Part shown: positions 4,246 to 46,781 of the stretch, piece after piece
Layout: every line of letters begins with the position of its first letter
How positions within the stretch are numbered: position 1 is the first letter of the stretch
DNA from: an uncultured Bacteroidales bacterium
Lineage (GTDB): Bacteria > Bacteroidota > Bacteroidia > Bacteroidales > Muribaculaceae
NCBI GenBank assembly: GCA_947175575.1
Contig: CAMWNG010000010.1
Coordinates: 1-46,781, forward strand
Reading direction: 5' to 3'
DNA length: 46,781 nucleotides
The notes under the pieces: model-generated
What the model saw: only the letters and a program-made list of their open reading frames with translations
Told to the model about the DNA's origin: nothing
Database searches by the model: none
Made by a program: the position numbers and the translations under genes

Positions 4246-4258
4246 AATATGCTATTTT

Positions 4259-11307: not shown

Positions 11308-11340
11308 TAATTCTCACACTTATTCAACATGCAACAGATT

Positions 11341-12834: not shown

Positions 12835-12873
12835 CCCGCAACCCACGCGTCCGCAAGACGCGCGCCCATAACT

Positions 12874-12910
12874 AAACCCCACACGCCACCACCCCGAGCG
12901 TGTGGGGTTT
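12874..12910 (+). terminator. Intrinsic terminator after the SusD operon
   Basis: 13-bp perfect stem (12874-12886 with 12898-12910), 11-base loop, right arm ending in TTT. The rest of the 317-base gap holds only the promoter for the next gene. Confidence 0.8.
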
Positions 12911-13098
12911 ACCATACTCCTACGCCCCCAACCTATCGAACCCAGAGAGGAACGGACGTCAGACGCGCAAGTCAACCCGTAAAAACCGCACATGTGGTGG
13001 AAGCGGGCACTTGCCTGCTGAGGTTTTAACTTGGTGATAACGCGGGATGACGAGTCTTAAAATAAGTTAAAGTGGTTCTGTGTAAGATTATTTTTCAC

Positions 13099-13106
13099 TA
13101 AGTTTG
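13099..13106 (+). promoter_or_regulatory. Likely -7 element for the branching enzyme gene
   Basis: TAAGTTTG, 45 bases before the start codon; the -33 region is poor (TTCTG instead of TTTG). Confidence 0.5.
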
Positions 13107-13151
13107 TGTCCTAAATCAAGTACATAAAACGCTTCATTCCGAATTCAAGTC

Positions 13152-25900: not shown

Positions 25901-26799
25901 ACGAATGGAACACCCGTCTCGAAGGCGTGGCCTTCGACCCCTCCGCTTCTGTAGCACTCCACCGCGGCTGGAACTGGATCGGCTGCCCTGTGGATGCTGA
26001 CGCAAGCCTCCGCATCGAAGACCTCTTCGCCGACCTGGCAGTTGAGGAAGGCGACATGATCGTAGGCCTTGAAGGCTATTCGCAGGCCGACGCCGAAGGC
26101 GAATGGAAAGGCACCCTGAGCGCCCTCGCTCCCGGCTCGGGATACATGTATTTCAGCAACTCCGACAAAGAGTTCACATACACCCTGACTCCCGCTGCTG
26201 AAGAACCCGTCCACGCGCAGGCTCCGGCAATGACGGCCGGCGAATGGGTGGCCGACATCCACCGCTATCCCTCGGTGATGCCCGTGACAGCCATGCTCGT
26301 CGACGGCGAAGGCACCCCCGCTACGTCCGACGATTATGAACTCGCAGCATTCTGCGGTGATGAATGTCGCGGCACCGGCGTCAACATCGACGGTGTATTC
26401 ATGATCAATGTTCACGGTAATACCGGCGACAAGATCGAATTCCGCTTCATCACTCCCGAAGGCGTCAAGATGATTTCTTCCACCAAGGTGAATTTCGACG
26501 AGAATCCTGCCGGCACACTGGCCGAACCTTGCGCTGTAAGCCTCTCCGGAACCACAGCCGCAGACGTCGTGGCCGCTGATTCCTTCGTGATCATCACTGA
26601 AAACGGAAGCGTAGTGCTGAAAGGCGACCTTTCCGAGGTGCTTGCCGTAGAAATCTACGACATCGCAGGCAATAAGGTGGCAGCCGCAGATGCAGCCAAC
26701 GGCCACCAGCTCAGCGTCGACCACATCGAAACCGGCGTTCACATCCTCGTGATCCGCACCACCGAAGGCAACCTCTACGACAAAGTCATGATCAAATAA
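19936..26799 (+). CDS. Giant multidomain C10 (streptopain-like) cysteine protease with leucine-rich repeats
   Basis: 2287 residues. A signal peptide (1-22) is followed by a propeptide-like domain (about 24-115; GFVIVSADDTSMPVIAYS) and a C10 peptidase domain (about 140-355) with catalytic Cys162 (LTGCVGVALAEI), His294 (SSGHAFVCDGYEF) and the INWGWGGSANGYY motif. C-terminal to it are beta domains and three LRR_5 blocks (about 585-740, 1050-1205, 1475-1600), a chitobiase-type C-terminal domain (about 1850-1917; YYTLDGSDP), paired motifs NWNWISHN and GWNWIGCP (about 1929 and 2012), a DECRG domain shared with the upstream protein (about 2140), and a type IX-like end (EIYDIAGNKV ... KVMIK). Known C10 enzymes (SpeB, interpain, PrtT) are far shorter. 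The likely role is a cell-surface or secreted protease with large binding modules. Confidence 0.88.
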   Translation: MHKSIQQMILALGLAVPAVAGASVLSADDAKIVAAEFFQYGKTHRLADKDALSLVHVATDATSKPVSYVFNATDGQGFVIVSADDTSMPVIAYSTTSTWCEDMIPQAAEQMLSVPVSALSYGTDRQRSARLSEGESRVLETPSWSQEAPFNNNIPNRRLTGCVGVALAEILKYHSYPATRPASLVKEGEDDKYAWETMRSDNYRSGYSMEEAEAVAALVADAAIAIGTDFGMSSSSAFEVKVPYALTSMFGYDSGVSYKKRAEMDKASWEDLIVNEINEGRPVLYCGQDVSSGHAFVCDGYEFRGGKVYLRINWGWGGSANGYYASDALNPVVSRAHSYNDLMTVVYNIKPAADVTMAWSPVHITSDERQPGLTLDVEEVAPGVAFNVRAGALKNISDRDFNGQLAVALYGADGKLKALLNDGRNFKLLSLQTLKYADFSCKLPAGVSVAEGDVVRMATKASDSDSWLPVAGDLLARGDVPALGAQIPYFNVSIPSSTEDVEIVADDNKVIKGRDFAFKVTPKSTDKVITVKANGFILSPDASNGYKITNVVEDQNIDILVQNAADVLSKSVLWVEAGTLQDLLTENEAATVVDLTLFGSMNANDFAFIRDRMKLNRLDISQVYIAAVGSNPANAIPAKAFSGYRSLKTIILPSNITTFKSGCFNNTGLTSIEIPASVATYEYNIFVGCSALREVIVRRPQVAWVNWCVFEGTPKARLVVPVGASGAYKAKEYWQDFKEIVEENPVPASTYRLSVKEEKGLKFTALTEGTEFALGSEYSFTLETDDSFGDAGVEVYANNTRLYPAADGTYNTRINTNTLIHVKLRQPESTTPDTTWKITGDAGGIGLVTDVVNVPVGKSFTVRANAIKVPAGNDASKFFCMVLTDKDGGIKEFISPITPNSVVTTGNLTYNFSCQVNESIVKEGNELRLATSYNKKNWNLVNADAEGVTDRISAIGNKVIYHSISMPQTMTGAKIEGAATQIVRGMPLNFKVTPVMPSNRVTLAVNGVYKALSAAVANISIPAVTEDIEVTILIHPAGESDYVVVNVQEGELAAKIAECPDRLKVIGTILDSEFSAFRAHAGNIIDLDLADLTIKGSAMNRNAIPSNAFAPTTPGGSSALRSIILPQNLERISDNAFARCSQLKEVTIPASVTYVGSGAFSSCTALTKIVMVGSTPPLTGTMSPFPSDASKITLEVPRGSESAYGAATFWSTIGPKAAKVSYWLKYDPTRAFVYTSYYGDGSNIEVSNSKVQVSLGLPNCPYEMKSAGVYRSGVIFKLYDNGKDVFTYSDANSIKNNFAPNEYGYGGQYNVIFDPSLGSSSYKYPQNHTFDVVFFYPVTFQNLDGANDVKAEIVNLQGDDRYDAQLSLYTYGAKGNRVVYKEGKDYKFRLTPPSPNVALTVQIENKIMTRAGTSARPAEYEWKRFDAMPDQDGLYTIPALPGDTWVKITGYLHVEEGEPIPSEDLTAVRKEDVEDFSELAVTGNMDEAAFQAVRDKFESIETLDLSEIENETLPDNAFEGMENLHTVILPDNVTEIGAETFKDCENLESIIVPGVSSIGDGAFEGCTSLTSIILPATTASAPEGAPARSPRASAGITAESFRGINPNCIIYVGDTEIPDSDHLNIILNVNGHRVAASDIILDAAHPFNAPASFSLGDHRISFATEIPGSNGNDVDGGWKGIMLPFTPTDMEYGVEFDKRNGSGLALISFDDENSEAMTHQTSLKANRPYMAHVCAPFESVPVTFFADGQSEGDNFVYDVAFTPVPEENVAIGKNFSLYGSYDGDSRLGDCLTLDETAGKFVMADSTVIRPFDAYLCANEGVSAAEFTVGSHPLWIHNPESAGVSGTYLYRSGKIELVSATAGASIYYTLDGSDPADAEGSRILYTGPFPMTDEALTVMAMAEYKGYVSDNVTLEFQLKKAALDYALAANWNWISHNVEKDIDVAEFAGEGISRILSQTQEVVRDPKAGLVGNLKTLAPVVTYKVCVDGDEWNTRLEGVAFDPSASVALHRGWNWIGCPVDADASLRIEDLFADLAVEEGDMIVGLEGYSQADAEGEWKGTLSALAPGSGYMYFSNSDKEFTYTLTPAAEEPVHAQAPAMTAGEWVADIHRYPSVMPVTAMLVDGEGTPATSDDYELAAFCGDECRGTGVNIDGVFMINVHGNTGDKIEFRFITPEGVKMISSTKVNFDENPAGTLAEPCAVSLSGTTAADVVAADSFVIITENGSVVLKGDLSEVLAVEIYDIAGNKVAAADAANGHQLSVDHIETGVHILVIRTTEGNLYDKVMIK

Positions 26800-27629: not shown

Positions 27630-30600
27630 ATGAAAACTAAATTACTCCTGATGCTCCTGTTTTTGGTGACTATTGTACCTATCTCAGTCAATGCCAGGCA
27701 GTTTGAGCCTTGGGAATATGATCATAGCGAGACTTGTTCAATAGAAGGTGAGACTGACTACAATGGAATGCCTTTATCCGGAGCGGATGTTTATTTCGCC
27801 ATTACCGGAGAAAATACCGCAAAGGTAATCGGTGTCTACTCAGGTTCAGGATACTATATGAGCAATTATGGTGTAGAGATTCCTTCTGAAATTTCTTTTT
27901 ACGACGATTCATCTTGGACCTATAAAGAATACACTGTAACTGAGATCGGTGACGGAGCCTTTAAGGATGAGAGCTATCTTCGCATGATTAGGCTGCCGTC
28001 AACCATCACCAAAATAGGCGACGAAGCCTTTATGGGATGTCAGGAGATCCAGAAGTTCGTAAACTCTCCTAATCTTGAGTCGATCGGTGACCGAGCCTTC
28101 CAATTTTCAACAGTTCGCAACATCACGTTCTATAGGAACTTTACTTTGGGAACAGATGCGTTCAAGAGCACATATTTATACACGCTCATTTGTCCTGAGG
28201 CAATGAAGGATGTTATAATCGCTTCAGCAAAAGCATCAGATAACAGCCCATATAACCCAATCAACAGCACTCATTTCTTTACATTTGGCCCAAATTCTAA
28301 ATTTGAGGATGATGTTCTGTATGGAATGACCGGTAATGTAAAGACCTCGATTATCTACGGAGGTAATTATAAGGGCGACTATACGGTTCCGAGTACTGTT
28401 ACAGAGATCTGTGACCAGGCGTTTGAGCAGGCGATGAATGTAACAAGTGTAACCATTCCGAGCAATGTCAAGAAGATTGGCTCGTACGCTTTTGCATTTT
28501 CTATGGGTCTGCGGCAAATTAATATGCCCTCGACGGAAGTAGAACTTGCCGTATCTGCTTTCAGCCGTGCGACATTCATTACATCGATTGATCTCTCGCA
28601 CGCCAAGCTCCCGCTGCCGGACAGTGTGTGCATGGAAAGCATGGTGCTTCAGGAAGTAAAACTTCCCGCCGCCACTAAGATAATTCCCACGTCAGCTTTT
28701 GAGCAATGTCACCAGCTCAATAGCATCAATATTCCTGAAGGATTGACTACGATTAAGGACAGAGCCTTCGTATATTGCCAGTACGCGAATCTGGAGCTAC
28801 CCTCATCCTTAACAAGCGTTGGTAAGGATGCCTTTGCAAATTGTGGTATCAAGAAGATGGTGGTTCCTGATGGCGTAGTCTTCTCCGGATCTTTCTATGA
28901 ATGTAATTTTGAAACGCTGGAATTTAAATCAAATAAAGCAATTGAAGACAACCTTGCTGTATTTGACGGTGCAATTGTTCAAACGCTTGTTATTCCGTCA
29001 AACGCAGTTCTCTTGCCTACAGTTAATGTTCAGGGGATGTCGACGTTCAATGTTCCATCAGGCGTAACAACCATTCCCAACGGATTCTTTTACGACTCGA
29101 ACCTTTCATCGATAACATTGCCATCCAAGTTAACGACTATTGAGGATTACGCATTCTGCAACAGTAAATTAACTACAATCACAATTCCGAGCACGGTAAA
29201 TTCAATCGGTAAAAATGCGTTTGCAAATTGTAAGAATCTGACATCCGCTTCAATCTCATCGGCAGTTTCAACTATTGAAGAATCAACCTTTAGCGGATGT
29301 ACTAAGCTCAGTCAGGTCATCATTCCCTCGGTCACTCAGATTAAGGGGAATGCGTTCAAGAGCTGTACGAGTCTGGCTTCGATTTCTCTCCCTAACACAT
29401 TGACCCAAATCGGTGCTAATGCGTTTGAGGGTTGTACGGCTTTAACCTCCGTAACTGTTCCTATTAAAGTGACAGCAATCGACACGTACGCTTTCCGCGG
29501 ATGTACGTCATTGACAACTGTCACGATACCGGCAAGTGTCAAGACCCTCGGAACATACTGTTTTTCGGGATGTACAAAACTGGCCAATATAACAATGGCA
29601 GAGGGCGCCACCACGATTGGAGCGTATGCATTCCAGAGCTGTTCAGCCCTCGTGAATATCTCCTTGCCCTCAACATTGACGTCCCTTGGCGGCAGCGTCT
29701 TCGCCGGCACAGGCATCAATGAGATCATAATACCGCCCAAGGTGCCTGCACCGTCTTCAACAACAGCAAACTATGATCCGCTCTTCAGCAAGACGACAAT
29801 CAGAGCCTTACTCCCGAACACCTGGAGCAGTAAGACCTCCACGTATTCCAACGCTGTATTATATACCGGTTCCACAAAGCCGGAAAAAACTGACGACGGA
29901 TTCTATTATGAGAATAGCAAGGCGCGTCTGCTTATGGCTCCATTGACTCTCAGCGGCGCTTATACTATCCCAAGCACAGTAACTCAGATTGCGGACAGGG
30001 CTTTCAAGAATTGTACCGAACTGACAGGCGTTACCGTGCCTGCAAGTATCCAGAGCATCGGAACATACTGTTTTTCAGGATGTACAAAACTGGCCAATGT
30101 ACAGTTTAACGAAGGTCTGACAAGTGTCAACAGTTACGCTTTTGATGGTTGTACGGCACTTAAGAGTGTCTCATTCCCCGCAACTTTGAAAACTGTGGGT
30201 ACATACGCTTTCAAAGGTTGTACAGGCATTACAAGCTTAGACTTTAAGGAAGGTCTGACCACTATCAATAATTACGCATTCAATTCAACCAAAGTTACCG
30301 ATATCATCGTTCCCTCCACGGTGACCACGATAGGCACTTCGGCGTTCCCGACTACAATCGCGCGTGTAGTCTACAGATCCGGTCTGTCGTATTCATGGCC
30401 AACGGCGGCTGTCAAGATCACTTACCCTGCGGGTATGACAGTGGCCAAGCAAGCCGACGGTTGTGTAGCCGGAACATCCGGAACGTCAAAGACCCTTGTG
30501 GCTCTGCCTGTCACAGCCACACTTACAGATGGTAAGTACATAGTTCCCGCCGAATACTCCGCTATTGGTTCGGGCGTCTATAAGTTCAACACCAACGTGA

Positions 30601-33600
30601 CCAAGCTGGTGATTCCCGGAACAGTCAAGACGGTTTCCGACGCCGCATTTGACGGATGCACCCGCCTGATCTCGGTAGAGTTCGGTGATGGTGTCCAGAC
30701 TCTGGGCGCAACATCTTTCCAGGGCACAAACATCACTTCGGTATTCCTTCCCAACAGTGTGACAAGCGTAGGCAAAAACGCATTCAACAACTGTTCGAAG
30801 CTCCTCACAGCCGTATATCCTGAAGGTCTTGATGTCACATTCCCGGCAGCCACACTTAAGGGCGCAGTTCCCGAAGGCTACGAAATGGAATTTGCTTCTG
30901 ACGGTTCGATGCTGGCAGTGAAGGGCACGGATAAGATCCTGCTCAGCGTACCCGCATCAGCTATCGGCGCCGACGGCACATATTGCTGGCCCAACGGCAT
31001 CACCAAGATTGGCAAAAACGCCTTCTCAGCTTGCAGCACCCTTACTGAAATCGTCATTCCCGATGATGTAATGACAATCGGCGAAGGCGCATTTAAAGGA
31101 CTTACCCAACTCAACACCATCGTGTTTGAGGATGGCGACAAGGGTCTGAACACCATTGAAGCCAACGCTTTCGCAGGCTGTACCGGTGTCACAACACTGA
31201 TTCTCCCCACTTCTGTCGAGACAATTGCAGAAGGCGCATTCAGCGGCTGCGACAATCTGACCAAGGTGGTGTGCCCCGCCAAGTTTGAAGAACGTGCTAA
31301 AGCAGCCTTCGCCAACGCCACAATCATCGACTATCCCGATGATTGCAAGCGCGCTTACTTCACCCCGGACGGAATGCTCGTGGCCGAAACCCCGGAAGAC
31401 AATCCTACGGTTTATCTGCTCGCCGTGCCCACCGACATCACACTTAATGAAAAAGGTGAGTTTGTAATTCCCGAATATGTAAATGTGATTTACGACGGAG
31501 CTATCGCCGGCGTAGAGAGCATCAAGTCGGTAATCGTGCCCAAAGATGTTGAGATAGGCTCAGGCGCTTTCCGCGGTTGCGAGCATCTGACCACTGTGGC
31601 CATTGCCGAGGGCGTAACCACTATCGGTGCGGAAGCCTTCGTTGGTTGCTCCAACCTCACCACTCTGATCCTTCCCTCCACTATAGATAATCTGGGAGAG
31701 AAAGCCTTTGACGGGTGCGACAATCTGTCCAAGCTTGTATATCCCGATTCCGAAAACCTTCAGGCCGCCGTGGCCGGCATCAATGTGCCGGAAACATGTC
31801 GCGTGATCGCTTATCCGGCTAATGCCCTGGCAGAGATTCAGCCTGACGGCCGAGTAATCGCCTACGATAAAAGCGGTCAATATGTATATCTGGTTGCCGT
31901 GCCCAATGATATGCCCCTGGAAGACGGCAAATACTATGTAGTAAATGATGATGTAAACTATATCTACGAAGGTGCGCTGGCAGGCTGTTCAAACATCACT
32001 TCGGTGTATATCCGTGAGGGTGTGACAGTAGGTAAAAACGCCTTTAAGGGTTGCGAACACCTCCAGACTGTCGAACTTGACGAAGGCGTTACAACCGTTA
32101 TGGATGGTGCGTTTGCAAATTGCGATGGCCTCACCACAATCGTGCTGCCCTCGACCCTGACCAACGTAGGCAACGACATCTTCGCAGAATGTGACAATCT
32201 TCAGAAGGTAGTTTATCCCTCCTCGCTGCAGGAAGAGGTAAACAATGCCGGTCTGCTTGAAGGCACTGTCGCCATCGAGTATGATCCCACCAAGATGAGC
32301 ATTTCAATTGATGAACTCGGGTATGTGATCGGCACACCCAAGGGCGAAGAAGGCCGTATCCTGGTGGCTGTCCCCAACAAGGTGGAATTAGACGAAAACG
32401 GCAACTTCAACATTCCCGATGGCATCACCGAGATCAACGGTGGCGCTTTGGCCGGTTGTGATATCACCTCTGTGATCATTCCCGAATCTGTCAAAACAAT
32501 CGGAGCACACGCCTTCGAGGGCTGTGCAAATCTGCAGACAGTAGCTATCGGCAACAATGTAGAGACCATCGGAGAGAGCGCCTTCGCTAACTGCGACGCG
32601 CTCAACACCCTGATTCTGCCCAAGAGTGTGACCTCGCTTGACGAAACTGCGTTCGACGGCTGCGACAATATTACCAAGCTGGTATATCCCGCAACCGATG
32701 AGCTCCACGCCGCTGTAGCAGCCCTGAATCTCCCCGAAAACTGCAAGCAGATTGACTATCCCGCTACAGCTACACCTGTGATCGACCCCGAAACCGGTGT
32801 TGTCACAGCAACTGACGGCAACAAAGTTTATCTGGTTGCCGTACCTGAAGATCTGGCCCTTGAAGATGGTAAGTTCGTCGTGCCCGCCAATGTTACCGAT
32901 ATTTACGAAGGCGCGTTTGAAAACTGCCGCAACATCACTGAAATCGAACTTCCTGCGACTGTCAAGACCATCGGTGCCGGAGCATTCGCAGGATGTGAGA
33001 AACTCGAAGTTGTTGAAATCAACGAAGGCGTGACCACAATCGGCGAAAAAGCCTTTGAAGGCTGCAACAATATCGCTGTAGTGGTGCTTCCCTCCACCAT
33101 CGATGAAGAGTCAATCCCTGCTAATGTGTTCGAGGGTGCTGAAGCCCTGACCAAAGTAGTAATACCCGATAATCTCGAACAGAAGATAACCGTAGGACAA
33201 AATGTAGCTACGGTCACCTATCCCGAAGGCGCAACAGTCAGCGTTGACGAAGCCACCGGCTGCGTTATCGCTGAAGTGAAAGGCGAAGGTGACGTGACCA
33301 CAGAGAAGATCCTGGTGACCACCACTCCCGCTACCGCCGCTGTTGAAGGTACATTCACCGTACCCGAAGGCGTGACCACCATAGGCAAGGGTGCTCTCAC
33401 CGACCTGACGGACGTCAAGGAAGTTGTTATCCCCGGCACCGTAACAGCAATTGGCGATGGCGCGTTCGAAGGCATGACAAACCTCACCTCAGTTGAACTT
33501 GGCGAAGGTATCAAAACCATCGGAGACAATGCCTTTGCCGGCACCGGAATCACAGAAGTGACACTTCCCGAAGGCCTCACCGAAATCGGCAGTGGTGCGT

Positions 33601-36600
33601 TCAGCGGCACTGCTATAACCGAAGTGACCGTGCCCTCAACAGTTGAAACCATCGGTGCCGGAGCATTCCAAGATTGTAAGGATCTGGCAGAAGTCAAGAT
33701 TGAAAAACCCGCTGAAGGAGCTGAAGGGGGGCTGACCTCAATCGGCGACAACGCGTTCAGCGGTTCTGCAATCACCTCTGTTGAAATCCCCTCGACCGTT
33801 ACCGAAATCGGCGATGGAGCATTCAAGGACTGTAAGGATCTCACAGAAGTCAAGATTGAAAAACCGGCTGAAGGAACTGAAGGAGGTCTGACCTCAATCG
33901 GTAATGATGCCTTCAACGGTGCCGCAATCACCTCGGTTGACATACCTTCTACAGTGACAACCATTGGCAACGGTGCTTTTGCAGGCACTCAGCTGACCGA
34001 AGTTGTGATTCCCTCAACTGTAGAGAATCTGGGCGAAGGCGTACTGGCAGGCTGTGACGACCTTGTTAAGGTAGTGGCTCCAGAAGGTGCCGAACTCGGT
34101 ATCTCCGCACCCGCCGAAGGTGAGAAACCAGTGGCTGTGGTTACCTATCCCGCAGGAACTTCTATCGAAGTGACTGAAAACGGACTCGTAATCGGAACAG
34201 ATGCCGACGGTAATAAGTCGCTTGTCTCCGTATCGGCCACTACCGAACACGAAGTTGTAATTCCTGAAGATGTGACCTCGGTAGGCGCAGGCGCCTTCGC
34301 AGGCTGCGGTCAGATCACCACCGTGGTTATTCCCGACAATGTGACCAGCGTGGGCGACGGTGTCTTCGAAGGTTGTGAAAACCTGACCTCTGTAGTTCTG
34401 CCTTCTGATATCACCGATGTTCCCTCAGACATTTTCGATGGCCTCGACAATCTCACCAAGGTCGTGGTGCCTGACAATGGCAGCGTTACCATCCCGGATG
34501 AAATCGCCGAGAACATCACAGTGGTAGAAGTACCCGGTGGCACCACCATTACCGTAAACGAAGAAACCGGTGCCGTGACCACCACCGCAAATGACGGCAA
34601 GACAGAACTGACCCTTGTTCCCACCGACGTAGAGAACTTTGAAATTCCCGCTGACGTCACATCCATCGGTCAGGGCGCATTCTCCGGCTGCGATCAGCTC
34701 ACAGAAATCAAGATTCCGGAAACTGTAACCGAAATCGGCGACGACGCGTTCAAAGGCTGCACCTCGCTGGAAAATGTTGTTATCCCCGATCAGGTTACCG
34801 AAATCGGCAACGGCACCTTCGAAGGTTGCACCGGTCTGACCAACGTGGTCATCCCCTCAAATGTTGAATCTATCGGCGATAACACCTTTGCAGGTTGTGA
34901 AAACCTCACTTATGTGTACCTTCCCGCAAGCGTTACCACAATCGGTGACGGCGTATTCAACGGATGTACCTCGCTCGAAACAGTCAATATCCCCGAAACA
35001 GTGACCGCTATCGGCGACAACACGTTCAGCGGCTGTAGCTCGCTGACTGAAGTGACTCTGCCTGAAAATGTAGAGACTATCGGTGACGGCGCGTTCAACG
35101 GCTGTACTTCTCTGACCACAGTGGAAATCCCCGCTAACGTAACTGAAATCGGAGCTGAAGCGTTCAAGGATTGCGAAAACCTGAGCTCAGTGATCCTGCC
35201 GCCGACTGTCACCACCGTAGGTGAAGGCGCATTCTCAGGTTGCACCAACATGACCAAGCCCGCTTATCCCTCGACAATCGAGAATAATCCTTTCGAAAGC
35301 GGATACGCCGTGGTTTATAATCCCGAGACCGACGTGATCACTCCCGACGGATGGATCAAGGGCTCTGACTCAAATTCGATTATCTACGCTCCTGAATCTC
35401 TTGAAGGCAAATTTACCGTTGATAATTCAGTGTCTGAAATCGGAGCTAACGCTTTCGCCGGCTGCGAGCAGCTTAAAGGTGTCACAATCGCAGGTAGCGA
35501 AACCGAGGAGACGGACACCCCCGTTCACATCGGTGCCAATGCATTCGCTGCCAGCGGCGTGGAGACTCTCGATATCAACCGCAACTGGACTATCGAAGGT
35601 GAAAAGACTCCGTTCCCGGAACTCACCGAAGTCTCTATCGGCGAGAAAGTGACCGAAATCCCGGCCAACTCGTTCAATGGTTCTCAGCTCACCGAAGCCA
35701 ATATCCCGGCTAATGTGGAAGTAATCGGTGCCGGTGCGTTCAACTGCGAGACTCTCACTGCAGTGAATCTTTCGGACGGTATCTCCACCGTAGAAGTGGC
35801 TGACGGAGCCTTCGGCAACGCGTTCACTGAGGTTTATATGGGTCGCCCGGTGGCAGGCACACCTTTCGCAGGCTCTTCTGTTGAAAATGTTGTGATCGGG
35901 AACGCCGTGAGCGACATCGAAAAGAGCGCGTTCGAGAATTGCGCCAATCTGACCGAACTGCACATCAGCTCGACTGTAACCGTCATAAGCGAAAAGGCGT
36001 TCTGCAACACCGGTCTCGTCAACGTAGTTCTGCCTCCGTCGGTACAGGAAATCGGAGCATCGGCATTCGCCAACAGTTCCGACCTCGATGAAATCGTCAT
36101 CGGACCGAAAGTGACCAAGATCGGAGAAAAGGCTTTCGCAGGCACATCGGGTACAAAGGTTCATATCACAGCTCTCGTACCTCCTGCCGTAAGCGCCAAC
36201 TCGTTCAACACCACCGACCGACTGCTCGTTCAAGGCGATGCCTCCGTAACCGCCTATAAAGCCGCCGACGTATGGAAAGGCTTCAACAATGTTTCCAAAC
36301 TTCAGGAAGCCAACACCATAAACGTCACCGGTGCCAAGGCCTTCACGGGCAAAGCCGGCGATACCTTCCAACTCACCGCCGAGCTCTCTTATGTCCCCGG
36401 TGAAAATGAAACTGCTCCTGCAGACGAGGTTACTCTGAAGCATGTATTCTGGCGCTCAACTAATCCTGAGGTTGCCACAGTGGATCACACCGGTCTGGTA
36501 ACGCTTCGTCAGGATCTCGACGCTCCCGCACAGACAAAGGCCATGCGTGCTCCCGCCGCTCCGGTCAAGATTGTCGCTGAATCGCTCTATGCCAATGGCC

Positions 36601-36803
36601 CGTCAGCCGAACTGGATGCTCAGACCGGCGACATGTCAGGAGTCTCCGACGTGATTTTCAACGGCACTCTGATCAACAGCAAGGACATAGAGGAAATCTA
36701 TGATGTCAAAGGTATGCGCATCGATTCTACTTATGAAGATCTCGTACCCGGCGTCTACATGATCCGCCATAACAACGAAGTCAAGAAAGTGGTAAAACAC
36801 TGA
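27630..36803 (+). CDS. Giant BspA-like leucine-rich repeat (LRR_5) surface protein
   Basis: 3057 residues. A signal peptide (about 1-22, ending SVNA) is followed by a long run of Treponema/BspA-type LRR_5 repeats of about 23 residues (I-P-x-x-V-x-x-I-G-x-x-A-F-x-G-C-x-x-L-x-x-V). The run is divided into blocks, each opened by a short strand such as YLVAVP followed by a DGKFVVP-like element; about a dozen openers are visible, and six from residue 1103 to 1894 are spaced 157-160 residues apart. Near the C-terminus are a Big_2-like domain (about 2890-2950; WRSTNPEVATVDHTGLVTL) and a type IX-like end (EEIYDVKGMRI ... PGVYMIRHNNEVKKVVKH). Such proteins bind host matrix or other bacteria in Tannerella and Treponema; here adhesion is inferred. 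Long frames on the opposite strand are artefacts of the repeats. Confidence 0.9.
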   Translation: MKTKLLLMLLFLVTIVPISVNARQFEPWEYDHSETCSIEGETDYNGMPLSGADVYFAITGENTAKVIGVYSGSGYYMSNYGVEIPSEISFYDDSSWTYKEYTVTEIGDGAFKDESYLRMIRLPSTITKIGDEAFMGCQEIQKFVNSPNLESIGDRAFQFSTVRNITFYRNFTLGTDAFKSTYLYTLICPEAMKDVIIASAKASDNSPYNPINSTHFFTFGPNSKFEDDVLYGMTGNVKTSIIYGGNYKGDYTVPSTVTEICDQAFEQAMNVTSVTIPSNVKKIGSYAFAFSMGLRQINMPSTEVELAVSAFSRATFITSIDLSHAKLPLPDSVCMESMVLQEVKLPAATKIIPTSAFEQCHQLNSINIPEGLTTIKDRAFVYCQYANLELPSSLTSVGKDAFANCGIKKMVVPDGVVFSGSFYECNFETLEFKSNKAIEDNLAVFDGAIVQTLVIPSNAVLLPTVNVQGMSTFNVPSGVTTIPNGFFYDSNLSSITLPSKLTTIEDYAFCNSKLTTITIPSTVNSIGKNAFANCKNLTSASISSAVSTIEESTFSGCTKLSQVIIPSVTQIKGNAFKSCTSLASISLPNTLTQIGANAFEGCTALTSVTVPIKVTAIDTYAFRGCTSLTTVTIPASVKTLGTYCFSGCTKLANITMAEGATTIGAYAFQSCSALVNISLPSTLTSLGGSVFAGTGINEIIIPPKVPAPSSTTANYDPLFSKTTIRALLPNTWSSKTSTYSNAVLYTGSTKPEKTDDGFYYENSKARLLMAPLTLSGAYTIPSTVTQIADRAFKNCTELTGVTVPASIQSIGTYCFSGCTKLANVQFNEGLTSVNSYAFDGCTALKSVSFPATLKTVGTYAFKGCTGITSLDFKEGLTTINNYAFNSTKVTDIIVPSTVTTIGTSAFPTTIARVVYRSGLSYSWPTAAVKITYPAGMTVAKQADGCVAGTSGTSKTLVALPVTATLTDGKYIVPAEYSAIGSGVYKFNTNVTKLVIPGTVKTVSDAAFDGCTRLISVEFGDGVQTLGATSFQGTNITSVFLPNSVTSVGKNAFNNCSKLLTAVYPEGLDVTFPAATLKGAVPEGYEMEFASDGSMLAVKGTDKILLSVPASAIGADGTYCWPNGITKIGKNAFSACSTLTEIVIPDDVMTIGEGAFKGLTQLNTIVFEDGDKGLNTIEANAFAGCTGVTTLILPTSVETIAEGAFSGCDNLTKVVCPAKFEERAKAAFANATIIDYPDDCKRAYFTPDGMLVAETPEDNPTVYLLAVPTDITLNEKGEFVIPEYVNVIYDGAIAGVESIKSVIVPKDVEIGSGAFRGCEHLTTVAIAEGVTTIGAEAFVGCSNLTTLILPSTIDNLGEKAFDGCDNLSKLVYPDSENLQAAVAGINVPETCRVIAYPANALAEIQPDGRVIAYDKSGQYVYLVAVPNDMPLEDGKYYVVNDDVNYIYEGALAGCSNITSVYIREGVTVGKNAFKGCEHLQTVELDEGVTTVMDGAFANCDGLTTIVLPSTLTNVGNDIFAECDNLQKVVYPSSLQEEVNNAGLLEGTVAIEYDPTKMSISIDELGYVIGTPKGEEGRILVAVPNKVELDENGNFNIPDGITEINGGALAGCDITSVIIPESVKTIGAHAFEGCANLQTVAIGNNVETIGESAFANCDALNTLILPKSVTSLDETAFDGCDNITKLVYPATDELHAAVAALNLPENCKQIDYPATATPVIDPETGVVTATDGNKVYLVAVPEDLALEDGKFVVPANVTDIYEGAFENCRNITEIELPATVKTIGAGAFAGCEKLEVVEINEGVTTIGEKAFEGCNNIAVVVLPSTIDEESIPANVFEGAEALTKVVIPDNLEQKITVGQNVATVTYPEGATVSVDEATGCVIAEVKGEGDVTTEKILVTTTPATAAVEGTFTVPEGVTTIGKGALTDLTDVKEVVIPGTVTAIGDGAFEGMTNLTSVELGEGIKTIGDNAFAGTGITEVTLPEGLTEIGSGAFSGTAITEVTVPSTVETIGAGAFQDCKDLAEVKIEKPAEGAEGGLTSIGDNAFSGSAITSVEIPSTVTEIGDGAFKDCKDLTEVKIEKPAEGTEGGLTSIGNDAFNGAAITSVDIPSTVTTIGNGAFAGTQLTEVVIPSTVENLGEGVLAGCDDLVKVVAPEGAELGISAPAEGEKPVAVVTYPAGTSIEVTENGLVIGTDADGNKSLVSVSATTEHEVVIPEDVTSVGAGAFAGCGQITTVVIPDNVTSVGDGVFEGCENLTSVVLPSDITDVPSDIFDGLDNLTKVVVPDNGSVTIPDEIAENITVVEVPGGTTITVNEETGAVTTTANDGKTELTLVPTDVENFEIPADVTSIGQGAFSGCDQLTEIKIPETVTEIGDDAFKGCTSLENVVIPDQVTEIGNGTFEGCTGLTNVVIPSNVESIGDNTFAGCENLTYVYLPASVTTIGDGVFNGCTSLETVNIPETVTAIGDNTFSGCSSLTEVTLPENVETIGDGAFNGCTSLTTVEIPANVTEIGAEAFKDCENLSSVILPPTVTTVGEGAFSGCTNMTKPAYPSTIENNPFESGYAVVYNPETDVITPDGWIKGSDSNSIIYAPESLEGKFTVDNSVSEIGANAFAGCEQLKGVTIAGSETEETDTPVHIGANAFAASGVETLDINRNWTIEGEKTPFPELTEVSIGEKVTEIPANSFNGSQLTEANIPANVEVIGAGAFNCETLTAVNLSDGISTVEVADGAFGNAFTEVYMGRPVAGTPFAGSSVENVVIGNAVSDIEKSAFENCANLTELHISSTVTVISEKAFCNTGLVNVVLPPSVQEIGASAFANSSDLDEIVIGPKVTKIGEKAFAGTSGTKVHITALVPPAVSANSFNTTDRLLVQGDASVTAYKAADVWKGFNNVSKLQEANTINVTGAKAFTGKAGDTFQLTAELSYVPGENETAPADEVTLKHVFWRSTNPEVATVDHTGLVTLRQDLDAPAQTKAMRAPAAPVKIVAESLYANGPSAELDAQTGDMSGVSDVIFNGTLINSKDIEEIYDVKGMRIDSTYEDLVPGVYMIRHNNEVKKVVKH
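30936..33308 (+). repeat. Five tandem super-repeats of about 158 codons inside the LRR gene
   Basis: Equivalent codons of the block opener (ILLSVP, YLLAVP, YLVAVP, ILVAVP, YLVAVP, ILVTTT) lie at 30936, 31413, 31887, 32358, 32829 and 33309. The spacings are 477, 474, 471, 471 and 480 bases. Confidence 0.8.
33672..33983 (+). repeat. Two nearly identical tandem 156-bp units in the LRR gene
   Basis: Units 33672-33827 and 33828-33983 each encode 52 residues including the non-LRR insert VKIEKPAEG and then GGLTSIG. DNA identity is high, which points to a recent in-frame duplication. Confidence 0.8.
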
Positions 36804-38179: not shown

Positions 38180-40057
38180 ATGAAACACATCCTTCCTAAA
38201 CTCGCAATAGCTGTTACTTCGCTCGCCGGTGCTTTCACACCTTTTTCCGCCGAGGCAAAGACGGCACCGATTGAAATAGACCGAGTGGAGCCGCCCCACT
38301 GGTGGACAGGCATGCGCCAGGACACCCTTCAGCTGATGCTCCACGGCAAGGACATCGCGGCAGCGACAGCATCGCTCGATTATCCGGATGTGAGCATCGT
38401 GGAGCAGGTGACAACAGATAATCCGAACTACCTGTTCCTGTATCTGAAAATCGGCCGGGAGGCCGCACCCGGCACTCTGGACATACACTTCAGGGAGGCG
38501 AAGAGGGAGACCACTCTTCCTTATGAGCTTAAGGCCCGCACCACCGACCCCGCAAACAAGAAAAGTTTCGACGCCTCGGACGTACTTTATCTGGTGATGC
38601 CCGACCGCTTCGCGTCGGACGGCCGCACGGAAAGCGAAGGTCTGGCGGATCTGGAGTTTGCGATCGGCGCCGACCGCTCCAAGCCAAACGCACGCCACGG
38701 CGGCAATATCGGGGGACTACGTCAACATCTCGACTACATCGACTCGCTGGGCGTGACGGCCGTATGGGTGTGTCCGGTGCTTGAGAACGACATGCCCGGG
38801 GGATCATATCACGGCTATGCCACCACTGATTATTACCGTATCGACCCACGATTCGGCACTAACGAGGAATGGAAAGAATTCATATCCGAAGCTCATGACC
38901 GCGGAATAAAGGTGGTAATGGACATGATTTTCAATCATTCGGGAAGCAATCACCCGTGGATGAAGGACAAACCGACTGCTGACTGGTATAACTTCCCCGA
39001 CAAATTCGTGCAGACAAACTATCGTCTGTCAACCGTATATGATCCATACGCGAGCGACTACGATTACAAACGCACCGTGGACGGCTGGTTCGTGAAATCG
39101 ATGCCTGATCTCAACCAGCGTAACCGCCATCTGATGAAATATCTAACACAGAACTCGATCTGGTGGATAGAAGAAGCGGGAATCGACGGCATCCGCATGG
39201 ACACCCATCCCTACGCCGACTTCGATGGCATGGCCGGGTGGCTCCGGGATGTGCGCAAGGAATATCCCGGATTCAATATCGTGGGCGAATGTTGGTACGG
39301 CAACGAGGGCGGCGAAGCGTTCTGGCAGAAAGGGGCGTTCACCAACCGCAAGGGCGACCCGGAACTCGAGACGGTCATGGATTTCGTGCTGTCGATCAAG
39401 GCACGCGATGCGTTTTCTGGACAGACTGACCCGTGGCACGGCCTGAACGAGATGTACGACCACCTCGCGCTTGACTATCTGTTCCCTGACCCGAGTAAAA
39501 TACTGACGTTCCTTGACAATCATGATACAGACCGCTTCTTGCTTGAAGAACCGGAAGATCTTGGATGGTGGAAACAGGCGATAGCCTTCCTGCTCACCAC
39601 CCGCGGAATTCCGCAACTCTATTACGGCACCGAAATACTGATGAACGGTTCGAAGGAGGGCAGCGACGGCTACGTGCGCCGCGACATGCCGGGCGGTTTC
39701 CCCGACGATGGGACTGTGAACGCTTTCACCGGCAAAGGACTGACTCCAAAACAGCTCGAAGCGCAGGATTTCATGAAAAAGGTGCTGAACTGGCGCAAGG
39801 GTAACGATGTGATCGCCAAGGGCTCGCTGAAACACTTCATGCCCTATCAGGGCGTGTATGTCTATGAACGCCGGCTCGGCGACCGGCAGGTAGTGGTAAT
39901 GATGAACGGCAACGACACACCCGTGAAAATGGATATGGAGCAGACTCTCGAGATTCTGCCATTCGGAACAGTGAAGCGCGACATGCTTTCAGGCGAGGAT
40001 ATAACCATTGAGAACGAAATGACCTTCGGTCCGCGCGCGCTTTACATACTGGAATGA
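38180..40057 (+). CDS. Periplasmic GH13 alpha-glucan hydrolase (SusA-like neopullulanase/cyclomaltodextrinase)
   Basis: 625 residues. A signal peptide (about 1-26, FSAEA|KT) places it in the periplasm. An N-terminal cyclomaltodextrinase-type beta domain (about 30-125; VEPPHWWTGM) precedes the alpha-amylase barrel. The catalytic set is complete: nucleophile Asp341 (GIRMDTHPY), acid/base Glu370 (VGECWYG) and Asp449 (LDNHDTDR). The family cleaves maltodextrins, cyclodextrins and pullulan imported through Sus systems; SusA of Bacteroides thetaiotaomicron is the model. It has its own promoter and no susC/susD partner next to it. Confidence 0.92.
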   Translation: MKHILPKLAIAVTSLAGAFTPFSAEAKTAPIEIDRVEPPHWWTGMRQDTLQLMLHGKDIAAATASLDYPDVSIVEQVTTDNPNYLFLYLKIGREAAPGTLDIHFREAKRETTLPYELKARTTDPANKKSFDASDVLYLVMPDRFASDGRTESEGLADLEFAIGADRSKPNARHGGNIGGLRQHLDYIDSLGVTAVWVCPVLENDMPGGSYHGYATTDYYRIDPRFGTNEEWKEFISEAHDRGIKVVMDMIFNHSGSNHPWMKDKPTADWYNFPDKFVQTNYRLSTVYDPYASDYDYKRTVDGWFVKSMPDLNQRNRHLMKYLTQNSIWWIEEAGIDGIRMDTHPYADFDGMAGWLRDVRKEYPGFNIVGECWYGNEGGEAFWQKGAFTNRKGDPELETVMDFVLSIKARDAFSGQTDPWHGLNEMYDHLALDYLFPDPSKILTFLDNHDTDRFLLEEPEDLGWWKQAIAFLLTTRGIPQLYYGTEILMNGSKEGSDGYVRRDMPGGFPDDGTVNAFTGKGLTPKQLEAQDFMKKVLNWRKGNDVIAKGSLKHFMPYQGVYVYERRLGDRQVVVMMNGNDTPVKMDMEQTLEILPFGTVKRDMLSGEDITIENEMTFGPRALYILE

Positions 40058-43795: not shown

Positions 43796-45031
43796 ATGAC
43801 ATCTATAAAAACAAAATTTCGCCCGTCGGCCATCGATGACCGTGAGGGTACGGTCTACTATCAGATTATCCGTCACCGGAAGATCAGGCAGATCCTTTCA
43901 GAATACAAATTGAAACCTTCGGAATGGGATGAGCGCCGCTCCTCGGTGTGTGTGTCAGGAACCCCGGAACGTCGAAGATTCCTCAGCGCGGTACGCGAGC
44001 GCATCCGACGCGATATCGAGCGTCTGGGGAAAATAGACCGACAATTCGAATCGTCCGGACTCGCTTATACGACTGATGATATAATTGACGAATTCCAACG
44101 CTATGCCTCCGAAAGCCGGCTGTTCACCTTTATGCAGACCCTGATCGTGCGCTTCAGGCAAAACGGCAATCTGCGGACATCGGAAACATATACGGCCGCA
44201 CTCAATAGTTTCAAGAAATTCCTGTCGAGTCTGAATTCCTCCGAAGAATTTCCCTCGGCCGAAAATATAAGGCTCGACAGCCTTACTGCCGATCTGATGG
44301 AGTCATACGAGGCATGGCACCGCAAACGCGGGGTCTCGTACAACACCATATCCTTCTACACACGGATTCTGCGGGCTGTGTACAACCGTGCTGTCGAACT
44401 TGACCTGACCGATAACAGAAATCCTTTTCGCCATGTCTACACCGGAGTGGATAAGACCGTGAAACGCGCAGTGTCTCTCTCCACCCTCAAAAAGATATGC
44501 TCTCTTGATCTATCGGCCACTCCCCGCCTCGACTTCGCACGCGATATGTTCATGTTGAGTTTTTATCTGCGAGGAATGAGTTTCGTAGACATGGCATTCC
44601 TCAAAAAGACAGATCTGTGCCACGGATATGTCACATACCGACGCCGCAAGACGGGGCAACGACTCACCATCAGCTGGACCAAAGAGATGCAAGCCATAAT
44701 CGAAAAATATCCCGTGAACACCTCGGTGTACCTCCTCCCGATAATCCGCTGTCCGGACACTAACGAACGTAAAGTCTACCGTAACACAGCTTATGCCATA
44801 AACCGGAACCTAAAACGCATAGCTGAACTGACAGATATTTCCATTCCGCTCACACTCTATGTGGCGCGCCACAGCTGGGCTTCGACAGCAAAGTCGATAG
44901 GTATTCCGATATCCGTAATCAGCGAAGGAATGGGTCATGATTCTGAAACCACGACTCAGATTTATCTCGCCAGTCTTGACACCTCTGTAATCGACCGCGC
45001 CAATAACCGCATATTGGCTTCTCTCAAATAA
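43796..45031 (+). CDS. Tyrosine recombinase, probable DNA invertase of the adjacent switch
   Basis: 411 residues. A Bacteroidetes-type integrase with an N-terminal arm, a SAM-like core-binding domain (about 105-205) and a catalytic domain (about 220-405). Active-site residues: Arg259 (FYLRGMSFVDM), Arg358-His359 in YVARHSWAS, a GMGHDSETTT motif, and nucleophile Tyr390 (QIYLASL). Position one of the HxxR box is Tyr, as commonly seen in this family. The absence of phage or conjugation genes nearby, and the inverted repeats 64 bases after its stop, suggest that it inverts the neighbouring promoter segment like the Tsr recombinases of Bacteroides (inference). No clear promoter was found in the 160 bases upstream. 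Confidence 0.9.
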   Translation: MTSIKTKFRPSAIDDREGTVYYQIIRHRKIRQILSEYKLKPSEWDERRSSVCVSGTPERRRFLSAVRERIRRDIERLGKIDRQFESSGLAYTTDDIIDEFQRYASESRLFTFMQTLIVRFRQNGNLRTSETYTAALNSFKKFLSSLNSSEEFPSAENIRLDSLTADLMESYEAWHRKRGVSYNTISFYTRILRAVYNRAVELDLTDNRNPFRHVYTGVDKTVKRAVSLSTLKKICSLDLSATPRLDFARDMFMLSFYLRGMSFVDMAFLKKTDLCHGYVTYRRRKTGQRLTISWTKEMQAIIEKYPVNTSVYLLPIIRCPDTNERKVYRNTAYAINRNLKRIAELTDISIPLTLYVARHSWASTAKSIGIPISVISEGMGHDSETTTQIYLASLDTSVIDRANNRILASLK

Positions 45032-45045: not shown

Positions 45046-45089
45046 ACAATGAGCGCCCCCGACCGGCTCCGGTCGGGGGCGCTCATTGT
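45046..45089 (+). terminator. Strong terminator between the recombinase and the invertible segment
   Basis: 20-bp perfect stem (45046-45065 with 45070-45089) and a 4-base loop GCTC. The core is very G/C-rich. It would stop recombinase transcripts from entering the switch and the upxY-like gene. Confidence 0.85.
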
Positions 45090-45095
45090 CATTGA

Positions 45096-45113
45096 CTCTT
45101 AAACAGAGTGTAG
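45096..45113 (+). repeat. Left inverted repeat of the switch (IRL)
   Basis: CTCTTAAACAGAGTGTAG; exact reverse complement of 45298-45315. Confidence 0.9.
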
Positions 45114-45257
45114 GTCTGATTACAATACACTGTCTATCAGGGCTCTATTGCGCCTTAGCTGACGTTTTGCTAAACATTTGGCTATTTAAGAGCCTCATCC
45201 GGAAAACCGATTACCATTTTTTTGAATGGATATTCAATCATTTTCAGAAATAATTCG

Positions 45258-45265
45258 TAACTTTG
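45258..45265 (+). promoter_or_regulatory. Promoter -7 element inside the invertible segment, ON orientation
   Basis: TAACTTTG; the upstream -33 region is T-rich but lacks an exact TTG at 19-20 bases. Transcription would start near 45271, cross the right repeat and run through a leader of about 220 nt to ATG 45491. Confidence 0.65.
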
Positions 45266-45297
45266 CCGTTGATTAGCAATTCTCCGCGATTGAGTGT

Positions 45298-45315
45298 CTA
45301 CACTCTGTTTAAGAG
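45298..45315 (-). repeat. Right inverted repeat of the switch (IRR)
   Basis: CTACACTCTGTTTAAGAG; exact reverse complement of 45096-45113. Homology stops at once on both sides. Confidence 0.9.
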
Positions 45316-45490
45316 ATTGTAAACAGGATTGTCGCCCCTGAATCATACAAAATGCGGCACAACCACCGGGAAAGTACCTGTACAGGCTAATCCCTGAGAT
45401 CCGAAACGAATGCAGCCGGACGGTTGGATTATAATGCGCGACAAAGTCGTCAGGACCCACCTCGCACTATAGGATAAAATGTAGGCTAAA
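45316..45490 (+). promoter_or_regulatory. Long untranslated leader of the upxY-like gene
   Basis: 175 bases without a convincing gene between the right repeat and ATG 45491. It holds a CCTGTACAGG palindrome and a GCGACAAAGTCGT hairpin-like stretch. In Bacteroides fragilis, UpxY proteins act through the 5' leader of their own operon, so this is the expected target region (established for the family; inferred here). Confidence 0.5.
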
Positions 45491-46045
45491 ATGAATGAAA
45501 ATATAAAGGAAAACGACAACCACTCACAATGGTTCGCCATTAAAACGCCACAGGATTTCAAAGCTGAAGGGGTACTGAAAGACAAATGCGATGAAATATT
45601 CTTTCCAAAAGAAACCGTTATCGGTCCCGGCAAACGCCCCAGGCAAAAAGCCGTAATTCCACACGTGCTTTTCATCAAGACTACACACGACAACGCCCTC
45701 GCGCTTGAAGACCTGGGCCGAAAACATCCGGAACAGAATATCCCGTTCTGGATTTACCGTTACCCCGCCGACAAACGAATCCAGATAATACCGCAAAGCT
45801 CAATCGAGCTATTACGGCTGCTCACCGCCGACGACTCTACGCAATGCCGGATATACACCGGACATGAATTTAAAGAAAAAGAGCTCGTCAGAGTAACAGA
45901 CGGCATATACAAAGGATACCAGGGATATGTACAACGCGTGAAGAAGAACAAGCACGTCATCGTAAAAATCGAAGGCGTATGCATGGTTATCCTTCCTTAT
46001 ATACATCCCGATCTTCTACAACCGATCACGGCGGAGACAAACTAA
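45491..46045 (+). CDS. upxY: UpxY-type transcription antiterminator (NusG paralogue)
   Basis: 184 residues. Residues about 12-115 form a NusG N-terminal domain (SQWFAIKTPQDFK ... FFPKETV ... RQKAVIPHVLFIKTT); about 137-172 is a KOW domain (VRVTDGIYKGYQGYVQRVKK). This is the build of the NusG-like UpxY/RfaH proteins, which let RNA polymerase read through long surface polysaccharide operons. The gene is first behind the invertible promoter, as in Bacteroides capsule loci, so it probably opens a polysaccharide operon lying beyond the window. The next frame begins 9 bases after its stop. Confidence 0.88.
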   Translation: MNENIKENDNHSQWFAIKTPQDFKAEGVLKDKCDEIFFPKETVIGPGKRPRQKAVIPHVLFIKTTHDNALALEDLGRKHPEQNIPFWIYRYPADKRIQIIPQSSIELLRLLTADDSTQCRIYTGHEFKEKELVRVTDGIYKGYQGYVQRVKKNKHVIVKIEGVCMVILPYIHPDLLQPITAETN

Positions 46046-46054: not shown

Positions 46055-46781
46055 TTGATCCCCGAGACCATACATACCGAGGCAACCACGGTTGATGCAC
46101 TCACCGACCACGGCACCCGGATAGCCCGCGCGGCCATCCGGGCCGGGATGTTTAATGTCGGCCACCTCCCCACACCTACCGACAAGAGCCTCCGGCAGGA
46201 AGCCCGCCAATGGCTTCATGGCACATCTGCCCTGCTGCCGCGACTCACGGCCGCGGAGATCCTACCCCTCATTACCGTATACGACCTCGTTCACCGCGTG
46301 GCGTTCCGCTGTCCGGCTGATACCGTTATGATCAACCGGCATGTCTTCCGCGCGTTCGATGCCCTCGTACACGGCGACTCAGCCGTAGACCAATACGACA
46401 TGTACCGCGCCATAAAAGCCGGGCTTGACCGCCGCGACAGCGCCTACTTCGACCGCACCATGCAGTGGAACACCATAACCCTCGGCCGCTGGCACCGGCA
46501 ATTCCGCCGCGGCACACCCGACGCCCCCCTGAGCGACTACGACACCCTCAACCGCGTAGCCATCCTTCTGAGCGATGACCTGTGGGCTTACGAGGCCTCC
46601 AACCAGGCAGCCTTCAAACACCGCCTCTTCATGGCCCACCGTCACTATCTCGACGCCCCCGAAGTCCTCGACCAACGCACCCTCCGCGCCCTCGACCACT
46701 TCCTCACCGCCTCCCGCCCCTTCCTCACCGAAGCCGACCACACCCGCCACCGGTCAGAGTTGGATATGTACCTCATCTCCA
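46055..46781 (+). CDS. Unknown protein encoded directly after upxY (partial, 3' end outside window)
   Basis: An open frame in phase with upxY continues from its stop to the window edge without interruption: 242 residues from a possible TTG start at 46055, or 211 from the first ATG at 46148. It is rich in Arg, His, Asp, Leu and aromatic residues and looks all-helical; recognisable stretches are AAEILPLITVYDLVHRVAF, RAFDALVHGDSAVDQYDMYR and MQWNTITLGRWHRQFRRG. GC content is high, like a normal local gene, and no frame on the other strand is more convincing. It holds the place of upxZ (an UpxY antagonist) in Bacteroides loci, but it is longer and I see no clear UpxZ similarity. Confidence 0.65.
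   Translation, partial: MIPETIHTEATTVDALTDHGTRIARAAIRAGMFNVGHLPTPTDKSLRQEARQWLHGTSALLPRLTAAEILPLITVYDLVHRVAFRCPADTVMINRHVFRAFDALVHGDSAVDQYDMYRAIKAGLDRRDSAYFDRTMQWNTITLGRWHRQFRRGTPDAPLSDYDTLNRVAILLSDDLWAYEASNQAAFKHRLFMAHRHYLDAPEVLDQRTLRALDHFLTASRPFLTEADHTRHRSELDMYLIS

Follow-up and report, generated by a model that had tools for sequence, protein, structure and literature searches.

A predicted invertible promoter before an UpxY-like gene in Muribaculaceae, with a covarying leader RNA and an unnamed second gene

Layout of the locus and its inverted repeats

The window, i.e. the whole stretch of DNA analysed here (46,781 nucleotides), is one entire contig of a draft genome (2.36 Mb in 107 contigs, 91.8% complete) from a member of the Muribaculaceae, a family that is abundant in the mouse gut. 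The features at issue lie close to its right-hand end, which falls at 46781 inside the last gene:

43796-45031, + strand: tyrosine recombinase, 411 aa, with a Pfam match and a complete catalytic set
45046-45089, no strand: perfect hairpin of 21 bp with a 2-nt loop, between the recombinase stop and the left repeat
45096-45113, + strand: left inverted repeat, 18 nt, with the core CTCT-TAAAC-AGAG at 45096-45108
45114-45297, no strand: predicted invertible segment, the 184 nt between the arms
45258-45265, + strand: TAACTTTG, a Bacteroidales -7 promoter element that points to 45491 (ON orientation)
45298-45315, - strand: right inverted repeat, 18 nt, with its core at 45303-45315 and the same 5-nt spacer inverted
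45358-45429, + strand: three-way-junction leader RNA, with P1 CAACC/GGTTG, P2 with the CCTGTACAGG hairpin and P3 TCCG/CGGA
45491-46045, + strand: UpxY-like NusG paralog of 184 aa, with a predicted role as processive antiterminator of the operon it opens
46055-46781, + strand: G3, of an unnamed family, second operon gene, cut by the contig end

Elsewhere the window holds a 2287-aa ORF with a C10 peptidase, its Spi inhibitor and BspA-type leucine-rich repeats (19936-26799), a 3057-aa ORF with 20 BspA-type repeat stretches (27630-36803), and starch-type genes for a SusD-like protein, a CBM48 alpha-amylase and a cyclomaltodextrinase (9685-15224 and 38180-40057).

As an earlier note on this DNA had pointed out, the two 18-nt arms are 100% complementary and lie 184 nt apart, and one TAACTTTG box sits between them on the + strand, directed at the UpxY-type gene. 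Each arm, moreover, itself holds a dyad, CTCT-TAAAC-AGAG, with a 5-nt centre. When the promoters of 34 sister cassettes are aligned, the box proves similar to them, and it follows the TAnnTTTG promoter consensus as given in the available text of PMC4747536. A chance origin of the repeat is ruled out, both because none of 100 dinucleotide shuffles of the window yielded two matches to the 18-mer and because the control stretches of related loci (see below) contained no promoter-bearing inverted repeat away from recombinase genes. With up to three mismatches allowed, the search for further copies that the earlier note had proposed returned none beyond the two arms, either in the window or in the whole 2.36-Mb draft genome; the 18-mer read backwards gave one match in that genome. 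At up to two mismatches the 18-mer is present in six of 61 relatives' genomes, the present one included, and occurs once each in the other five, at places (L106-L110) where neither a recombinase match nor a promoter-bearing inverted repeat was found. Since these copies come without a switch, the arm is locus-specific and the core CTCT-N5-AGAG is what the loci share. No exact match of the 18-mer was found in viral contigs, and the arm differs from the repeats printed in the accessible part of PMC12118408 for B. intestinalis and P. distasonis, the sole repeats with which it was compared; within that comparison, nothing contradicts the earlier note's remark that the repeat is not one recognised from B. 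fragilis.

The stretch from the recombinase stop to the left repeat has an MFE of -44.1 kcal/mol. A long hairpin comparable to that at 45046-45089 was seen, by eye, only at L061 among the other 21 cassettes, and it is possible that the hairpin acts as an insulator or terminator.

The UpxY-like gene, its leader RNA and its probable target

That the gene at 45491-46045 is of the UpxY type, as the earlier note had it, agrees with profile similarity, although the match to NCBIfam NF033644 (E=2.5e-19, 69.9 bits) does not reach the cut-off of 100, for which reason the name UpxY-like is used here. An hhalign comparison with an UpxY adjoining UpxZ gave a probability of 97.5% and E=5e-12 over 149 columns. 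The protein is predicted to be the antiterminator of its own operon, and its genome has no other close homolog of UpxY.

In the stretch from the right arm to the start of UpxY, homologous loci have a block in common that folds on paper as a three-way junction, in which P2 consists of an outer helix and an invariant CCU...AGG hairpin, and P3 (UCCG/CGGA) bears a terminal loop of very variable length. The alignment on which this structure rests comprises 24 of 33 leaders, a duplicate (L137, the same record as L050) and eight leaders of weak or no likeness (L141-L144, L146-L149) having been left out. Pairing is found in 91.7% of 504 cells and both sides have changed in 13 of the 21 pairs. RNAalifold gave 15 of these pairs unaided and six were added by hand before counting, a step that tilts the counts toward the structure; the weakest of the six fail, columns 12-42 in 13 and columns 53-75 in nine of the 24 sequences. 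None of 500 shuffles equalled the RNA on any of five measures, and sliding the partner strand lowers the pairing to 26-45%. Fold energies, expressed as mean z over the 24 leaders, are -0.87 for the core, -1.93 for the stretch before it and -1.70 for the stretch behind it, with values below -1 in 17 and 19 of the 24 leaders for the stretches before and behind, respectively; flanking hairpins are thus common in the leaders of relatives. The window's own leader is unremarkable in this respect (core about -0.6 to -0.73, before 0.51, behind -0.59), and the case for the RNA therefore rests on covariation across relatives. Membership of a known Rfam family was rejected: the window leader (45316-45490) had no covariance-model match up to E=10, the leaders of L047, L048, L051 and L132-L135 had none at gathering scores, and the hits that the window did produce, on the 45046-45089 hairpin or otherwise outside the leader, are ascribed to chance.

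How closely does this RNA follow the protein? Searching 297 genomes of the family with the leader RNA model returned 21 places in 20 genomes, of which 20 lie within about 300 nt before an UpxY homolog on the same strand, the exception being G323 with 25.5 bits; since 19 of the 21 places had been used to train the model, the search speaks to absence elsewhere and not to sensitivity, and large covariance searches apply stricter filters. When 27 UpxY places are ranked by score, the top 19 (at least 171 bits) all have the leader RNA, and among the eight lower-scoring ones G313 has it and G306, identical with L142, shows a weak trace of 22.3 bits. Among 295 genomes drawn from the order, the RNA was found only in the window, apart from two 25-bit matches; the weak matches G323, G501 and G522 (25 bits) were put down to chance, the fetched stretches containing no NusG-like gene by profile. 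Applied to more distant NusG types (29 sources), model R1 gave, besides the window and L047, only matches of 30.4 bits at L141, 22.3 bits at L142 and 18.2 bits at L144, and it found no match in the 29 readable newly fetched G3 loci. The RNA occurs at UpxY loci both with and without a switch, which implies that it belongs to UpxY and not to the inversion.

Its position in the window is that of the 5' leader, within which, according to the available text of PMC7819879, the UpxY proteins of B. fragilis act, and we consider it somewhat probable that the RNA takes part in the action of UpxY. Could it be, rather than an antitermination element, a riboswitch-like regulator of the UpxY gene that responds to a ligand or controls translation? 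A three-way junction with nearly invariant loops would suit such a role; however, the RNA tracks the protein, its matches across the 297 genomes preceding, with the one exception named, UpxY homologs of a single clade, and this tracking, together with the behaviour of the B. fragilis proteins in their leaders, makes a riboswitch-like function rather unlikely.

What, then, would the UpxY-like protein serve? The earlier note had thought of a surface polysaccharide locus. Sugar-nucleotide dehydrogenases, an epimerase, a flippase or glycosyltransferases follow the UpxY homologs of L047, L048, L053 and L133, and a reductase-cytidylyltransferase that of L052, so that this part of the claim finds support at homologous loci; the operon genes of the window itself lie beyond the contig end, and the attribution here is accordingly by comparison. 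A surface-polysaccharide operon is the probable target. That the target is some other surface system seems improbable given these neighbours, even if polysaccharide genes and a switch occur together only at L047 and L133 among the scanned loci; pointing the other way, one sister cassette (L064) precedes an outer-membrane-efflux-like protein and a SPOR-domain protein, and the genes seen after UpxY at L051 and L058 are not polysaccharide genes. The cassettes of L059 and L060 precede a SusC-like protein and that of L062 a kinase-like gene, as judged by the look of the first residues.

The recombinase and its probable switch

The earlier note had placed a tyrosine recombinase next to the repeats, an identification borne out by the matches of 43796-45031 to Phage_integrase (36.2 bits; Pfam cut-off 27.1) and Phage_int_SAM_5 (60.8 bits) and by the residues in the catalytic columns of its product, R259, K285, Y355, R358, H381 and Y390. 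A Tyr replaces the first catalytic His, as it does in the other active-looking relatives aligned. We propose that this protein is the invertase of the adjoining segment. Homologs of it (E<=1e-40) occur in 37 of 49 genomes of the genus, its own included. Among 45 homolog loci that extend 450 nt or more downstream, the window excluded, 21 show in the 450 nt behind the recombinase an inverted repeat of 13 bp or longer together with a TAnnTTTG box. None of 324 stretches behind other ORFs had such an element, nor had any of 1167 stretches picked at random from these loci; the criterion was fixed once the loci had been inspected a first time. Of the 21, L104, with an AT-rich arm, is doubtful, and L059/L060 are near-identical, though from two species. 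The remaining 24 of the 45 homologs have no such switch behind them. When the window is included, the box faces the next gene in eight of 22 cassettes, the recombinase in 12 and both ways in two. A second promoter-bearing inverted repeat, with 22-bp arms and another core, lies at L047 6164-6360, some 1.2 kb ahead of that locus's UpxY switch.

Strand exchange by tyrosine recombinases requires that the spacer, which may vary between loci, match within a pair. A scan of the genus for two CTCT-N5-AGAG cores 150-180 or 181-211 nt apart, in which a matching centre was not required, gave 37 + 10 = 47 places in 32 of 49 genomes, as against 2 + 1 = 3 for the reversed pattern. In 35 of the 36 places for which DNA was fetched, the same 5-nt spacer is present in inverted form, with 27 different spacers among them (the exception is G006, L244), and at the remaining 11 the reads of both strands begin, by eye, with the same core. 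In all 35 matched pairs just one of the two cores has a TAnnTTTG box within 45 nt, and the promoter points outward at that end (one box in 33 pairs, two at the same end in two), an arrangement that segment shuffles of preserved base composition (n=200) produced in 2.2 pairs on average and in 9 of 35 at most.

One genome of the genus (G035) contains seven CTCT-N5-AGAG switch pairs, so that a recombinase probably acts in trans there. Might the window segment likewise be flipped by a recombinase encoded elsewhere, its neighbour being an unrelated integrase? Trans action of the kind presumed for G035 probably does occur in relatives, and some switches, those of L047, L133, L134, L136, L208, L209 and L211 among them, have no active-looking recombinase homolog in the fetched stretch; the window's own genome, however, contains a single core pair and a single homolog (E<=1e-40), side by side, and the same order of recombinase and switch recurs in 21 of 45 loci, which leaves a foreign recombinase quite unlikely. 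Least credible is a relic, a segment that once flipped and is now locked ON in this lineage: TAACTTTG does sit 37 nt ahead of the right core, as compared with 14-17 nt in most sister cassettes, but a relic would be expected to drift, and here the arms are perfect over 18 bp, the spacers match and all six catalytic positions of the recombinase are kept.

Inversion itself can be seen between related loci. L233 and L235 are orthologous loci from two genomes that belong to a different genus of the family, with collinear flanks and an inverted inner segment: read in the same direction, the left and right flanks share 249/302 and 219/315 identical columns, and the inner segment shares 137/185 when inverted (with a run of about 64 identical bases) and 97/202 when read directly. 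Besides the inversion, the central base of the spacer differs between the two (TACTA in L233 at 3145, TAGTA in L235 at 3095). Among 65 distinct core pairs, eight pairs of segments are alike at a score of at least 40, of which L059/L060 are collinear, L233/L235 inverted and six have flanks too unlike to judge. The best inverted cases among the 231 pairs of the 22 cassettes are L093/L094 (44.5 vs 5.5) and L099/L100 (31.5 vs -0.5), the highest score in 300 shuffles being 21. A forward TAnnTTTG box is found within 260 nt upstream of 20 of the 24 aligned leaders; in the other four (L049, L058, L134 and L138, the last with arms of only 12 bp) the promoter of the repeat-flanked segment faces away, and they provide examples of the OFF state.

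On these comparisons, 45096-45315 is very likely a functional switch of an UpxY-type operon. The earlier reading of it as a phase-variable switch in the ON orientation is thereby supported by comparison with related loci.

G3, recombinase-NusG fusions and a possible module

As a switch, the segment is a regular, well-formed example of a type already known, represented by Tsr19 and by the capsule loci of Parabacteroides. In B. fragilis the tyrosine recombinase Tsr19 (BF2766) adjoins the invertible promoter of an extracellular polysaccharide operon, an arrangement resembled by the window, where a tyrosine recombinase adjoins the predicted invertible promoter of a probable operon of that sort; according to the available text Tsr19 also flips a distant promoter (PMC4747536), and the window genome has one site pair of the type found here. 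Unlike in the Tsr19 system as described there, the window switch is directly followed by an UpxY-like gene and a structured leader. Mpi of B. fragilis acts on invertible promoters of capsule loci, but is a serine recombinase with many sites (PMC4747536, available text), whereas the window has a tyrosine recombinase beside one site pair; of the two models named in the earlier note, the local, Tsr19-like one is therefore apt and Mpi is not. The capsule promoters of Parabacteroides distasonis and Bacteroides xylanisolvens also resemble the window, combining an integrase/tyrosine-type invertase, a promoter between inverted repeats and an UpxY or NusG gene as the first of the capsule operon, and the P. 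distasonis repeat GCTACTYRGNRAGTAGC can, in our own reading, be seen as a dyad with a 5-nt centre (PMC12118408, available text). They differ from it in their half-sites (GCTACT/AGTAGC vs CTCT/AGAG), in segment length (314-345 bp vs about 200 bp) and, as far as the accessible part of that source goes, in that the window has the three-way-junction leader and G3.

LoaP offers a parallel for the leader, being a NusG paralog that depends on a leader RNA hairpin, although its dfn element is a small UNCG hairpin and the window leader a 72-nt three-way junction for which co-occurrence and covariation speak (PMC12691694, available text). In 2020 it was described as unknown how a NusG paralog reaches the operon that encodes it (PMC7593976, accessible part). 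A search of PMC full text, judged by titles, found no paper on such switches in Muribaculaceae. For Bacteroides UpxY, operon finding was reportedly addressed by Saba et al. in 2024, with UpxY said to recognise paused polymerase through DNA and nascent RNA hairpins said to help; because of that work, hairpins in UpxY leaders are less novel as such. What is new here is a covarying three-way-junction leader RNA that occurs almost only before this UpxY clade, the G3 family, which follows a NusG-like gene, mostly under switches, where UpxZ is mostly missing, and 13 related proteins in which a catalytically dead recombinase is fused to NusG. Leader RNA and G3 make the operon behind the switch a new variant, and these parts weigh more than the switch itself: the switch extends to Muribaculaceae a phase-variable surface control that is well studied in Bacteroides, the RNA that tracks one UpxY clade offers a direct, testable candidate address in a group other than Bacteroides, and G3 and the fusions suggest a regulatory layer rebuilt from other parts.

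G3 has no match of note in Pfam or NCBIfam, and hints of a methylase (E 0.14-0.21) were taken as noise. In Bacteroides, too, the NusG paralog comes first and a second regulatory gene, UpxZ, next (PMC7315117 and PMC12632263, available text), but G3 is not detectably related to UpxZ, and the idea that it is an UpxZ was rejected (the Pfam UpxZ model gave nothing up to E=10, and hhalign with one UpxZ put the probability at 0.05%). UpxZ (PF06603) itself was found in one of 99 genomes of the family, a count without a separate positive control, since the 14 control genomes also lacked it. A search of 297 genomes gave 35 matches to the G3 family, spread over 30 of them. Of 30 places fetched, one (L234, at a contig end) is unreadable, and at all 29 others the gene immediately before G3 on its strand is NusG-like according to our own profile, the gap between the two ranging from -412 nt (an over-long frame at L219) to 332 nt; as the other five places (the window, L085, L134, L136 and L138) have the same order, together with a switch, a NusG-like gene precedes G3 at all 34 readable places. 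Where at least 500 bp precede the NusG-like gene, a repeat-flanked promoter is present in 22 of 24 G3 loci (seven toward the gene, 11 away from it and four with boxes both ways), L210 and L224 having none within 900 bp; of five loci with less than 500 bp, L215 and L220 have one as well. Most other UpxY loci, in contrast, have no switch. This position makes G3 a candidate stand-in for UpxZ; that it works like UpxZ is put forward tentatively, at a little under even chances, and a cross-locus inhibitor role is weakened here by the lack of a second close UpxY homolog in the same genome.

The 13 fusion proteins (450-541 aa) join an N-terminal tyrosine-recombinase-related part to a NusG-like part and are encoded next to invertible promoters, three in the genus (L063, L066, L085) and ten among the newly fetched G3 loci. 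Besides six more, they comprise:

L063, 6776-8251
L066, 10072-11430
L085, 1137-2552
L208, 1961-3376
L211, 2864-4297
L233, 1541-3166
L235, 1491-3113

In one alignment of these divergent sequences, Gly stands in place of the first catalytic Arg in 12 proteins and Cys in one; all 13 lack the Lys and the nucleophile Tyr, and seven keep the second Arg. Pfam supports the recombinase part in L063, L066, L208, L209, L212 and L233, and not above cut-off in L085 and L227; the NusG part exceeds the Pfam cut-off only in L227 among six fusions scanned and in the others is recognised by our own profile (E 1e-20 to 1e-37). Scanned with model R1, the fusion loci gave no leader RNA, and a narrow search of PMC full text found no paper on a NusG-recombinase fusion.

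How might these parts work together? The recombinase (43796-45031) would bind each arm at its CTCT and AGAG half-sites, and strand exchange within the 5-nt spacer TAAAC would invert 45096-45315, both steps being deduced from the comparison of loci. In the ON orientation, transcription would, to judge by the consensus, start a few bases past TAACTTTG and cross the right arm; the leader core would then fold as the three-way junction that covariation supports, and the UpxY-like protein would be made. By analogy with the UpxY proteins of B. fragilis in their leaders, this protein would act on RNA polymerase in or just after the leader, such that the long operon is read through. In the OFF orientation the promoter would face the 3' end of the recombinase gene and the 21-bp hairpin. 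G3 would be a regulator tied to its NusG-like partner, perhaps as UpxZ is in Bacteroides. A joint reading, which we regard as possible though doubtful, is that Muribaculaceae have a phase-variable antitermination module of their own, composed of a CTCT-N5-AGAG invertible promoter, a three-way-junction RNA on which a dedicated NusG paralog would load, G3, which would take the place of UpxZ without being related to it, and, in sister loci where the RNA was not found, a fusion of dead recombinase and NusG that possibly reads the recombination site. At the fusion loci this site, now in the transcribed leader, may serve as the loading signal; if true, a former recombinase would now read the address on behalf of an elongation factor. 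At L224 a dead recombinase-like gene (2584-3801) and a short NusG-like gene (3798-4283), followed by a G3 gene, are separate neighbours, perhaps a split form of the fusion.
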